Virus record (IMG/VR): IMGVR_UViG_3300023181_000077
Coordinates: 1 to 25,798 of that record
Direction: 5' to 3' (one strand)
DNA: 25,798 bases
Source of the DNA: a virus
Shown here: in pieces, positions 7,648 through 21,481 of the stretch
Layout: each line of letters opens with the position of its first letter
Numbering within the stretch: the stretch's first letter is position 1
Notes under the pieces: generated by a model
Seen by the model: the letters and a program-made list of their open reading frames with translations, nothing else
Told to the model about the DNA's origin: nothing
Databases searched by the model: none
Program-made: the position numbers and the translations under genes

Positions 7648-8616
7648 CTATTTAATATTTATAAATGAACCTGAACTGCCTGTAGTAGTTGTGGGTAGCT
7701 TACCATCCCATTTCTGTATTTTCATGTATTCAATATACAAAGGGGTAAGCTTCTGTTCTTTTAGCTGAACCGCTTTAGCTTCGGCAAGTGCTTTGATTAC
7801 AGTTTTAGCACTATCAGCCTGTGCTAACGCAACGATACGCTCTTTGTCTGCCCTTGCTGCGCTTGCTTGTGCAGCACTTGTTATTGCGTCCTGTGTAGCT
7901 TTTGCCTTTGCCTCAATGCTTTCTGCAATACTTCTCGGTGGCTGTATATTAGTTTTAAGTTGGCTTATTTCAAACCATTTACCAACACGCTTATTTGCTT
8001 CAACTATAATAGCGGCCTCAAACAATGAGCGATTATTAAATATATCCTCAATAGGATAAGTATTAGCAACATCATTTACAGCACCCAAGATAGCGTTCTT
8101 TAACCATCCCTGTTCTACAGCCTGTAAACCGCCTGTTTTATATGTAGAACGTAAATTAGTAAACATATCCGCTGCCATAGGGGATTTTACAGAATAATTT
8201 AAAGCGGGGCTTATGTCACATGCAAAACCACCTTTAGCAACAATAACGCTCTTTCCATAATCAATATGATGTTGGTCTAATGGTATTTGTTGTAGTTCCT
8301 CTGTGTAGGAATTATAAAGTATTAACCCTGACACTTCTTCAATATTTGAAGCCCCGCGATTATCTCCCACAAGATTAACCCTTAATCCTTTATAACCTGC
8401 CTCAATTTTTTTCATTGAATACGGCTGCAAGAAGATAAACAAAATACCTAAAATTAGAAATACTAATGGCTTATAGTTAAACTTAACTTCCTCTCTGTAA
8501 CCGCCCCTAACATTAACATCGGCAATACTCTCCTTTGATAATATTTTAAAACGTGTTTGTGCAACAAAAGCACCCCAAATAATTAAAAAAACGACTAATA
8601 AAATAACTGTTACCAT
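7648..8616 (-). CDS. SPFH/prohibitin-like membrane protein, about 322 aa
   Basis: Two hydrophobic segments at the N-terminus (TVILLVVFLIIWGAFVA and PLVFLILGILFIFLQPYS) precede an SPFH domain. The domain reads GYKGLRVN…SGLILYNSYTEELQQIP, then …VKSPMAADMFTNLRS…, then a helical Ala/Glu-rich C-terminal stretch (AESIEAKAKATQDAITSAAQASAARADKER and beyond, coiled coil) and a Gly/Ser-rich tail. SPFH proteins (prohibitin, HflK/C) form membrane rings. The frame opens at an ATG in the upstream terminator (8649), but MVTV at 8616 begins the membrane segment and is the likelier start. It directly follows the kissing-loop leader. Confidence 0.8.
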   Translation of the reverse strand: MVTVILLVVFLIIWGAFVAQTRFKILSKESIADVNVRGGYREEVKFNYKPLVFLILGILFIFLQPYSMKKIEAGYKGLRVNLVGDNRGASNIEEVSGLILYNSYTEELQQIPLDQHHIDYGKSVIVAKGGFACDISPALNYSVKSPMAADMFTNLRSTYKTGGLQAVEQGWLKNAILGAVNDVANTYPIEDIFNNRSLFEAAIIVEANKRVGKWFEISQLKTNIQPPRSIAESIEAKAKATQDAITSAAQASAARADKERIVALAQADSAKTVIKALAEAKAVQLKEQKLTPLYIEYMKIQKWDGKLPTTTTGSSGSFINIK

Positions 8617-8638: not shown

Positions 8639-8729
8639 AAAAAACCCATACTATCCGAATGCTTCTCACTTCATTCTTCAAATACGGGTTTTGTTACTTT
8701 TTAAGTTGCTATAGTGTGAGAAGGCAACA
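8639..8729 (-). ncRNA. Leader RNA K3 with kissing-loop and terminator
   Basis: The RNA begins about 5 bases after the promoter box at 8734. The first hairpin is GTTGC/GCAAC (8728-8724 and 8709-8705), with a 14-base loop starting CTTCTCAC. The second is GAATG/CATTC with a 10-base loop containing GTGAGAAG (8669-8662), the exact reverse complement of CTTCTCAC: 8 nt of loop-loop pairing. The outer stem of the second hairpin is AAAACCC/GGGTTTT (8692-8686 and 8647-8641), followed by a T-run, so this is an intrinsic terminator. The SPFH gene start follows. No ligand or protein site is visible. Confidence 0.65.
8641..8692 (-). terminator. Intrinsic terminator upstream of SPFH gene
   Basis: The 7-bp stem AAAACCC/GGGTTTT encloses the GAATG/CATTC inner hairpin and is followed on the minus strand by TTTTTTG (8644-8638). 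It would stop transcripts coming from the K3 promoter and probably from the upstream genes, unless the loop-loop pairing or a factor changes it. The ATG inside it at 8649 is why I reject that start for the SPFH gene. Confidence 0.7.
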
Positions 8730-8733
8730 GATA

Positions 8734-8760
8734 CAAATATATAAAAGTTTTCCAATTCAA
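8734..8760 (-). promoter_or_regulatory. Leftward promoter with TATATTTG box
   Basis: The -7 box TATATTTG (8741-8734) fits TAnnTTTG exactly. A TTG lies 16 bases further upstream (8760-8758), slightly closer than the usual 17-23. Transcription would start near 8729, immediately before the first hairpin of leader K3. The stretch 8742-8781 up to the RuvC-like gene is otherwise featureless A/T-rich sequence. Confidence 0.6.
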
Positions 8761-12736: not shown

Positions 12737-13387
12737 TTAAAACTTTTGGTATTTAACATTATACATTTTTCTCATTTCTATTAGAAGCTGCTTATATGAA
12801 GTAATAAAATTCATGTCGATTGCAAAAGCCAATTTTGTTTGAATATCATTTATTTCATTTAGCTGACTTTCATTAGCACTTTGCCTTAATTCCTTACCTG
12901 TTTTATTATACACAATCCATTGAATAGCCTTTGCAACCTCTTGGAATGAGTAACCGTTAAGCTTAACTAATGAGCTTGATAAAGTTTTATAATTATCGCC
13001 TGCTAAATTTCTTTGTTGAATAAGCTCATCATAAACAAACTTAATTACAGAAAGTTTAAACTTAGGGTTAAGCCACATCGCGAAATCAATAAATAAATAA
13101 GGGTGCATCCATATTTCATCTTTAGTACGCCCCTTTGCTGTATTCCGACCCTTTTTTTCTTGAATAGCCATAACAGAAATTTCTGATTGGGCTATTTCCT
13201 CATTAAGAGCTTCAAGAAATTCAGTAGTTGCTTTTGATTTAATGAAATCCTGCATATTCTTTCTTTTATTAGTTGGTCTTTCATTCCAAGCAGATAATAG
13301 AAAGTTTGCATCGAAGTAACCATCTTTTGTTCGTTGTAGTATATCAAAACTACCCATTTTACGAACCATTGTAACTGATGTTATCAT
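12737..13387 (-). CDS. KilA-N domain protein, 216 aa
   Basis: The KilA-N domain covers about residues 14-120: FDILQRTKDGYFDANFLLSAWNE, then NMQDFIKSKATTEFLEAL, then KDEIWMHPYLFIDFAMWLNPKFKLSVIKFV. KilA-N is a DNA-binding domain of phage regulators/antirepressors. The C-terminal region (120-216) is helical and basic. It is the first gene behind leader K2, whose terminator ends only a few bases upstream, so its expression, and that of the replication genes after it, should depend on read-through. Whether it acts as antirepressor or transcription factor is not shown. Confidence 0.85.
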   Translation of the reverse strand: MITSVTMVRKMGSFDILQRTKDGYFDANFLLSAWNERPTNKRKNMQDFIKSKATTEFLEALNEEIAQSEISVMAIQEKKGRNTAKGRTKDEIWMHPYLFIDFAMWLNPKFKLSVIKFVYDELIQQRNLAGDNYKTLSSSLVKLNGYSFQEVAKAIQWIVYNKTGKELRQSANESQLNEINDIQTKLAFAIDMNFITSYKQLLIEMRKMYNVKYQKF

Positions 13388-13392
13388 AATGT

Positions 13393-13445
13393 AAAAACAA
13401 AAGCCGATATTATCAAGGCTTCCAGTCCTATCAAATAATCGGCTT
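13393..13445 (-). terminator. Intrinsic terminator upstream of KilA-N gene
   Basis: Arms AAGCCGAT (13445-13438) and ATCGGCTT (13408-13401) form an 8-bp stem, continued by TAT/ATA with a small bulge, and are followed by TTTTGTTTTT on the minus strand. It ends 6 bases before the KilA-N ATG, an attenuator position. The apical loop is complementary to the upstream hairpin loop of leader K2. Confidence 0.75.
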
Positions 13446-13497
13446 GTTTAGGTTAAAGTGCAACCTATAAATATCTTATGTGTAGCTGGAAGTCTAC
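13393..13497 (-). ncRNA. Leader RNA K2 with kissing-loop and terminator
   Basis: The first hairpin is GTAG/CTAC (13497-13494 and 13485-13482), with loop ACTTCCAG. A middle hairpin AGGTT…AACCT lies at 13466-13450. The terminator hairpin has outer arms AAGCCGAT/ATCGGCTT and inner AGG/CCT, with loop ACTGGAAG. Its CTGGAAG (13425-13419) is the exact reverse complement of CTTCCAG in the first loop (7 nt). Transcription would start right at hairpin one. The terminator ends 6 bases before the KilA-N start codon. The middle hairpin resembles that of K1 (see findings). Confidence 0.7.
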
Positions 13498-13501
13498 GAG
13501 A

Positions 13502-13509
13502 CAAATATA
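13502..13509 (-). promoter_or_regulatory. Leftward TATATTTG promoter box
   Basis: The -7 box TATATTTG fits the Bacteroidota consensus. No TTG at the usual upstream distance is visible; the upstream DNA is A/T-rich. Transcription would begin within a few bases of 13497, the first base of the K2 hairpin. The exact TSS is inferred from the typical 4-7 base distance. Confidence 0.55.
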
Positions 13510-13834: not shown

Positions 13835-14413
13835 TTAGAATTGTTTTCCATTTTCTTTAATGCGGTTTTCAATTTTGTGGTCAGCACGATTAGCATTGTA
13901 CTCTAACTTTTCCATTACAGCCCCGCCAATATCATAACCCCAGCGTCCGCAATAATCCATAATCCTAATTACAGCGTCTGCCATTTCTACTTCTGCCATT
14001 GGTCGGTTATGTAAATGGTCATCCATTAGGTTTTTACGTTCTCCCTCCATAGCTTCTGATAATTCACTATGTATTAAACATATCATTTCGGCTTTGTTAC
14101 GCTCTTTTAATTCGCCTGTATTAATATCTGTGTGCCACCCTGCTAATAGAGAAGCGTTGTAGCAGATATCTCTTATACCGTTTAATTGAGCATCATAATC
14201 TGATAATTCAAAAACCCATTTTACATCATAACCCCGAACACCTTTTGCGCCTTTAGTTTCAATTTCATAATCAACATGATGAGAGAGGCATTCCAAAAAA
14301 CTTAGTTGGGTTTCGTCAATATCATTACCTACGCCAATTATTCCATTTATTTGTATTGCGTAACATGAATACCCTGTATTTGTTTTTTCAACTATAACCG
14401 TTAATTCTTCCAT
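13835..14413 (-). CDS. HicB-like domain fused to MazG-type NTP pyrophosphohydrolase, 192 aa
   Basis: The N-terminal 50 residues have the HicB-antitoxin/DUF1902-like pattern LTVIVEKTNTGYSCYAIQING…VGNDIDETQLSFLECLSHHV. After a short linker (to about 75), the C-terminal half has the all-alpha NTP-PPase (MazG-like) motifs: IHSELSEAMEGER (Glu117, Glu120) and AEVEMADAVIRIMD (Glu143, Asp146), the EExxD-type metal set. MazG enzymes hydrolyse NTPs/dNTPs, possibly also ppGpp. The pairing with a HicB-like half and no toxin is unusual. The enzyme domain is surer than the HicB part. Confidence 0.75.
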   Translation of the reverse strand: MEELTVIVEKTNTGYSCYAIQINGIIGVGNDIDETQLSFLECLSHHVDYEIETKGAKGVRGYDVKWVFELSDYDAQLNGIRDICYNASLLAGWHTDINTGELKERNKAEMICLIHSELSEAMEGERKNLMDDHLHNRPMAEVEMADAVIRIMDYCGRWGYDIGGAVMEKLEYNANRADHKIENRIKENGKQF

Positions 14414-21328: not shown

Positions 21329-21358
21329 TTGCTTAATAATGTTTTTTATGTATATTTG
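21329..21358 (+). promoter_or_regulatory. Rightward promoter TTG-19-TATATTTG
   Basis: TTG (21329-21331), exactly 19 bases, then TATATTTG (21351-21358): an excellent match to the Bacteroidota consensus. The start of transcription is predicted near 21364, one base before the first hairpin of K1. It directs transcription toward the antirepressor operon. Confidence 0.85.
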
Positions 21359-21363
21359 TCCTG

Positions 21364-21481
21364 TAGTTAAACGCAACTTAACTCAAAAGGAAAATATTTA
21401 GGTGCTTATTAAGCCTTATGGTTTATACATCTACTACAAAAATCCCAAAGACAGTTGCGTTGTCTGCGGGATTTTTCTTTT
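21364..21481 (+). ncRNA. Leader RNA K1 with kissing-loop and terminator
   Basis: First hairpin: AGTTAA/TTAACT (21365-21370 and 21378-21383) with the 7-base loop ACGCAAC. Middle hairpin: AGGTGCTT…AAGCCT (21400-21416). Terminator hairpin: outer AAAAATCCC/GGGATTTTT, inner AGACA/TGTCT, apical loop GTTGCGT (21454-21460). The two 7-base loops are perfect reverse complements. A run of T (TTTTTCTTTTT) ends the stem. About 350 bases then lead to the antirepressor gene. The structure suggests a premature-termination leader or a ~115 nt RNA. Confidence 0.75.
21438..21481 (+). terminator. Intrinsic terminator of leader K1
   Basis: Arms AAAAATCCC (21438-21446) and GGGATTTTT (21468-21476) with the inner 5-bp stem AGACA/TGTCT and loop GTTGCGT, followed by CTTTTT. 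Strong on the plus strand. A frame on the plus strand (21418-21603) runs through it and is probably not a gene. Confidence 0.85.

Follow-up and report, generated by a model that had tools for sequence, protein, structure and literature searches.

A family of 5' leader RNAs in Bacteroidota phages with complementary loops in a 5' hairpin and an intrinsic terminator

The guanidine-IV riboswitch (GGAM-1 or mepA motif) and its Gd4v variant (PMC7736828, PMC9788692, PMC11611296) consist of two hairpins whose loops pair with each other, the 3' hairpin being a Rho-independent terminator. They sit just upstream of genes. Because the linker becomes shorter as the terminator stem extends, the kissing loop hinders completion of that stem and the polymerase reads through (PMC11611296; PMC7736828). 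The pairing lies within highly conserved ligand-binding loop nucleotides, and the riboswitch accompanies guanidine and transport genes of cellular bacteria. The guanidine-II riboswitch (mini-ykkC) likewise has two hairpins with kissing loops; these are short and conserved, and the kiss is linked to ligand binding (PMC9300104). Neither guanidine-II hairpin is known to be a terminator. In pT181-type antisense attenuators loop-loop pairing in a leader decides termination, the partner being a separate antisense RNA (PMC4878617). Structured phage RNAs that control termination near promoters include the put antitermination RNA of HK022, which has two hairpins, is not known to carry a terminator of its own and acts on the polymerase, and the c4 antisense RNA, which works by antisense pairing. 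Gene regulation in phages of Bacteroidota is little understood.

The stretch of DNA analysed here (the window) is an IMG/VR virus record of 25.8 kb with Bacteroidota-phage-like gene content. Its K3 leader, on the minus strand (8741–8641), runs from a Bacteroidota-type -7 element through a 5' hairpin and a short linker to an intrinsic terminator. The -7 element, TATATTTG (8734–8741), is one that precedes nearly all members of the family described below. The 5' hairpin GTTGC[CTTCTCACACTATA]GCAAC (8705–8728) is supported by sequence and fold, and its stem pairs covary in 53 sequences; the loop holds the kissing strand CTTCTCAC (8723–8716) and a 3' tail, ACTATA. The A-rich linker (8690–8704), whose final bases are paired when the outer stem is drawn at its longest, measures 12–15 nt depending on where that stem is counted from, a small correction to an earlier note on this sequence. 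The terminator core (8641–8692; sequence and fold), after which comes a U-tract, a feature also of 41 orthologous leaders, has an outer stem of 12 bp (8692–8681 / 8652–8641), a UGAA/GGAU internal loop (8680–8677 / 8656–8653) and an inner stem GAATG/CATTC closed by the apical loop AAGTGAGAAG, that is GAATG[AAGTGAGAAG]CATTC. Within this loop GTGAGAAG (8669–8662) is perfectly complementary to CTTCTCAC over 8 nt. The minimum-energy fold is exactly the 5' hairpin plus the terminator hairpin (-21.5 kcal/mol, z = -2.8). The promoter, hairpin, terminator and 8-nt loop complement that the earlier note had proposed are all present, on the minus strand. K3 is followed by a gene for an SPFH/Band_7 protein (7648–8616, minus; Pfam PF01145, E 9e-15), a phage-encoded membrane protein of unknown role (phrog_200). 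Its start is more likely ATG 8616, about 24 nt past the terminator, than the automatically assigned 8649, because the latter falls within the terminator.

Two further leaders of this plan are found in the window. K2 (minus strand) has the same -7 element TATATTTG (13502–13509), a 5' hairpin GTAG[ACTTCCAG]CTAC (13482–13497), a linker of 36 nt and a terminator (13401–13445) with apical loop ACTGGAAG and internal loop UGAU/UGAU, all assigned by sequence; the loop-loop complement is 7 nt. The gene for a KilA-N domain protein (12737–13387, minus; Pfam PF04383) starts 13 nt past this terminator. Orthologous leaders (L010, L011 and L022) carry different codes that are still complementary. K1 lies on the plus strand and comprises, again by sequence, TATATTTG (21351–21358), the 5' hairpin AGTTA[AACGCAACT]TAACT (equivalently GTTAA[ACGCAAC]TTAAC; 21365–21383), a linker of 54 nt and the terminator AAAAATCCC..AGACA[GTTGCGT]TGTCT..GGGATTTTT (21438–21476), whose loop GTTGCGT is a 7-nt complement. 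The next gene encodes an AntA/KilAC phage antirepressor (21829–22542, plus; Pfam PF08346, PF03374). K1 ends 353 nt upstream of it; the leader of its orthologue (L027) is about 20 nt upstream. The gap may reflect an insertion or a short unannotated gene in between.

The loops of K1, K2 and K3 are unrelated to one another, and the earlier claim of three loci, on both strands, with unrelated loops and a common plan held for K1 and K2 as for K3. So did the judgement that three chance occurrences are very unlikely: a strict scanner applied to 300 dinucleotide shuffles of the window found no leader in 294, one in six and never two, vs three in the real sequence. Cross-pairing between the three loci, a check that the same note had called for, is only weak, at best -3.7 kcal/mol compared with -8.6, -9.8 and -11.6 kcal/mol for the cognate pairs.

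K3 belongs to a large, widespread family of 5' leader RNAs in Bacteroidota phages, as shown by sequence, conservation and covariation. When the K3 leader alone was used as a blastn query, Cellulophaga phage phi18:3 (77% over 139 bp) and Tenacibaculum phage Gundel_1 were recovered; K2 recovered Flavobacterium phage FCL-2 and its relatives, and K1 alone found no relatives by blastn. The full architecture is present in these phages with different, self-complementary loops (CTTCTGAC/GTCAGAAG in phi18:3, GCTCTCAC/GTGAGAGC in Gundel_1 and CATCCAC/GTGGATG in FCL-2). A scanner for promoter, 5' hairpin and terminator with complementary loop returned 26 leaders in 1.05 Mb, compared with 2–7 in shuffles; 14 of them had a complement of at least 8 nt (1.5 in shuffles). 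A search of IMG/VR with a pattern for the K3-type terminator half alone, TGAAN{4,5}AAGTSAGAMGN{4,5}SGAT, returned at least 119 stretches. Although it is no part of the pattern, a complementary 5' loop was present in 98 of the 119, the other 21 being unrelated matches without inner-stem pairing or truncated by the contig end. Besides IMG/VR contigs, nine named phages carry at least one leader: there are two each in phi18:3, phi13:2, Gundel_1 and FL-1 (three in the phage of the window), at least one each in FCL-2, Harreka_1, 11b and filifjonk9-1, and in phi19:3 one clear leader plus a weak covariance hit where phi13:2 has its second. The second leaders of phi13:2 (L317, 23456–23561) and phi18:3 (L003, 23578–23683) share the code CCTTCAC/GTGAAGG; the tiny annotated ORF gp059 of phi13:2 is probably no gene, because this leader overlaps it.

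In bacteria the leader is rare. With the pattern made slightly stricter, 84,980 species genomes of bacteria and archaea gave eight matches, three with a full leader, and a covariance model was positive in four of 399 Bacteroidota genomes, three of the four already known; one positive bacterial-genome sequence and an IMG/VR record contain the same leader (L065/L184). With so few matches in bacterial genomes, we regard the family as essentially phage-borne. In 50 test loci the covariance model R2, built from a pattern-selected set with the stated structure, gave 29 matches with E no higher than 0.1; the E-values mostly fell between 1e-7 and 1e-15, at the expected site upstream of the gene. The model gives low scores to leaders with other internal loops, so a single model misses part of the family.

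The complementarity of the loops was assessed with sets chosen in several ways. Among leaders defined by promoter, hairpin and terminator only, without a complementarity criterion, nine of 21 other than K3 have a complement of at least 7 nt, where 0.14 is expected from permuted pairs. In named phage genomes such a complement accompanies 12 of 18 terminators that follow TAnnTTTG and 10 of 74 that do not. For genes chosen on protein homology alone (DUF6291 and a primosomal-type protein), 66 non-redundant upstream regions were collected; 41 have a terminator 5–25 nt ahead of the start codon, and loop complementarity of at least 6 nt is found in all 41 (at least 8 nt in 26, against 0.5 expected). 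These 41 orthologous leaders contain 33 different kissing sequences in which nearly every position varies, complementarity being kept although the kissing sequence is fully replaced. Covariation, which the earlier note had wanted examined along with a search for further members, is strong: in 53 aligned members the score is 0.475, vs 0.108 after shuffling and no more than 0.054 with slid partners, and compensatory changes are seen at kissing positions 2 and 6 and at nearly all stem positions. This set admitted perfect kisses only, and its 100% kiss pairing is therefore by construction; the two-sided changes are not.

Most members have the UGAA/GGAU internal loop, which is flipped in phi18:3 and takes the form UGAU/UGAU or UGAC/UGAU in some; FCL-2, Harreka_1, 11b, L116 and others have AGUA/GAA instead. 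From sequence alone, without 3D evidence, we infer tandem G.A pairs for UGAA/GGAU and a bulged G with the sarcin-ricin signature for AGUA/GAA. Of 66 leaders of the UGAA/GGAU type, 55 have a kiss of 8 bp; the type has an inner stem of 4–5 bp, an outer stem of 10–12 bp and a linker of 12–15 nt. In its terminator loop two nucleotides (AA) precede the kissing strand and none follow it; in the 5' hairpin loop the kissing strand comes first and a 3' tail of about 6 nt (ANWAUA) follows. These tails hardly vary, and they fit the general observation that the deep groove can be crossed by a few nucleotides and the shallow groove takes about six. Across the family the linker is close to AAAGRARTTA and 12–15 nt long in most members, longer in some types, and the 5' hairpin starts a few nt past the -7 element. 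The kissing loops are swapped between hairpin and terminator in filifjonk9-1 (L319), L010, L011 and L130:11620, a pattern that conservation of the kissing module itself would produce. At about 13870–13975 of filifjonk9-1, the 5' hairpin holds AAGTGAGACG and the terminator CGTCTCACACTAC.

The genes downstream are unrelated (DUF6291 proteins, replication initiators, helicases, HNH endonucleases, SPFH and KilA-N proteins, antirepressors). The distance from terminator end to start codon has a median of 19–23 nt and is 5–25 nt in the homology-chosen set; the U-tract is 65–90% T over about ten positions in the 41 orthologous leaders. Where coding sequence directly adjoins the same gene upstream the leader is absent, and because many leaderless regions are coding right up to the gene, the leader marks the first gene of an operon. 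A leader-peptide reading (a short ORF such as ATG AAG TGA in the terminator) was considered and rejected, since the frame is not conserved among members.

The phage leaders meet the structural criterion of guanidine-IV, a 5' loop paired with the loop of a Rho-independent terminator; their position just upstream of genes is the same, and here too the paired state is proposed to block closure of the outer terminator stem. They do not meet the criterion of conserved ligand-pocket loop nucleotides, given their varied kissing sequences, nor that of guanidine, sugE-type transporter or related metabolic genes downstream, which are phage genes instead. What sets them apart is a freely varying pairing of 7–9 bp and a structured internal loop in the terminator stem, together with their diverse downstream phage genes and near restriction to phages. 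The resemblance to pT181-type control, where pairing of loops decides termination, is inferred for the phage leaders, and in all members seen the partner loop belongs to the same transcript, in a survey that did not extend to antisense promoters. A covariance search with Rfam release 15 gave no match in the window at the gathering score and none at E<=1 in ten member loci; permissive thresholds gave only chance-level matches to the leader itself. No hit to RF01695 or any other family was obtained, with the proviso that the presence of a guanidine-IV model in Rfam 15 is unconfirmed. No described family was found in the literature searched, with subscription papers mostly outside its scope, and to our knowledge the variable kissing code, the internal-loop modules and the phage-only spread have no described counterpart. 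The suggestion of an undescribed phage RNA family is supported; the accompanying statement that no described family has this plan held only in part, since pairing between a 5' hairpin loop and the loop of a terminator is known from guanidine-IV riboswitches as well (PMC7736828, PMC11611296). As a device the leader would be a transcription attenuator of guanidine-IV-like plan, this function being inferred, and the family itself is absent from Rfam 15 and the literature searched.

The earlier note offered no function. With promoter, intrinsic terminator and gene in this order on one strand, the general criterion for an attenuator is met and a cis attenuator is the natural reading; it is the best supported one, although inferred. 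On balance we favour, with moderate confidence, a Bacteroidota-phage cis transcription attenuator with a kissing terminator, where control of termination is deduced and no expression data exist. As sequence, conservation and covariation show, RNA polymerase starts at the TAnnTTTG promoter, and the first bases of the transcript fold into the short hairpin, followed by the A-rich linker of 12–15 nt and the intrinsic terminator, whose apical loop forms about 8 Watson–Crick pairs with the 5' hairpin loop. The kiss is predicted to form co-transcriptionally as the terminator loop emerges and to compete with, or re-shape, closure of the lower terminator stem. By analogy with the guanidine-IV riboswitch, the nearest tested precedent, for which the same has been proposed, the kissed state may then let the polymerase continue into the gene, the direction of control being an inference; the balance might be set by a phage or host factor, none of which is identified, or by the RNA alone. 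By simple geometry a coaxial stack of 5 + 8 + 4 + 4 + 11 layers would be about 90 Å long, close to the reach of a 12–15 nt linker, which would make competition between kiss and terminator plausible. Besides the lack of expression data, three points speak against an attenuator. The full kiss (-9 to -12 kcal/mol in isolation) needs no ligand, which leaves the sensed signal unclear; linker length does not rise with stem length, unlike in a strict taut-linker model; and K1 is far from its antirepressor gene. On the second point, the correlation of linker with outer stem length is weakly negative, which is likely to be a boundary artefact, the linker/stem boundary being arbitrary.

The alternative that survives best is an element of mRNA stability or translation, which remains possible. 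The terminator would mostly be read through, and the kissed fold would shield the 5' end and set the start-codon distance for a ribosome that does not use a Shine–Dalgarno sequence. The tight spacing from hairpin foot to start codon (5–25 nt, median 19; median 23 in another set) and the closeness of the 5' hairpin to the -7 element agree with this. Against it, the GC-rich stem foot and the T tract are the signature of an intrinsic terminator, unneeded for either role, and compact phage genomes also predict tight spacing.

It is less likely that the leader is a stand-alone phage small RNA, a terminated RNA of about 90–150 nt that acts in trans and may do so through kissing contacts with other RNAs, for instance by competing for nascent leaders, with the gene reached by leakage. 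The leader RNA is complete and compact, its codes diversify at orthologous positions like the specificity loops of antisense-RNA systems, and codes differ within the genome in 16 of 16 multi-leader loci. Distinct codes within a genome are no evidence of orthogonality, however, because the diversity of codes predicts them by chance, and the short constant distance to the first gene of an operon and the absence at internal genes would be needless for a trans-acting RNA.

A ligand-binding riboswitch class in which, as in guanidine-IV, a metabolite or ion stabilizes the kiss is very doubtful. It is favoured by the guanidine-IV layout and by the loop tails (AA, ANWAUA) and UGAA/GGAU loop kept in the commonest subtype. 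It is opposed by the variation of orthologous kissing sequences at nearly every position, by the exchange of the internal loop for another motif, by the lack of a common pathway among downstream genes and by a phage-borne distribution nearly excluding bacterial genomes. Chance, or ordinary terminators with coincidental complementarity, can be all but discounted: AT-rich genomes do yield matches of 6–7 nt by chance, as at terminators without the promoter, but the shuffle, permuted-pair, covariation, homology-chosen and promoter controls contradict it and the compensatory changes in orthologous leaders rule it out.

A bolder form of the cis attenuator is conceivable, namely a phage-wide set of protein- and ligand-free RNA switches with a kissing code for each operon, in which the contest of cis kiss and terminator closure, or trans kissing by terminated leaders of the same code, would time expression; co-infecting phages that share codes might even cross-talk. 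The leader is common to diverse marine, freshwater and Flavobacterium phages and placed at operon starts, several of the phages examined carry it two or three times, and if the attenuator reading is true it would be a general control element. It is a modular RNA part with an interchangeable code, and since many compensated natural variants of kissing loop and terminator exist, the gating of intrinsic termination by loop-loop pairing alone is directly testable.

Promoter-proximal terminators are common in the phage of the window. Two more TATATTTG promoters on the minus strand (20425–20348 and 21310–21242) have intrinsic terminators within 45–60 nt; these are capped by GNRA-type tetraloops (GAAA and GAGA), and no kissing partner was seen for them. 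The 12-mer CCTAATATATTT occurs four times on the plus strand (6062, 6085, 20283 and 20306), as two pairs with 23 bp spacing in distant intergenic regions, and these copies may be binding sites or iterons.
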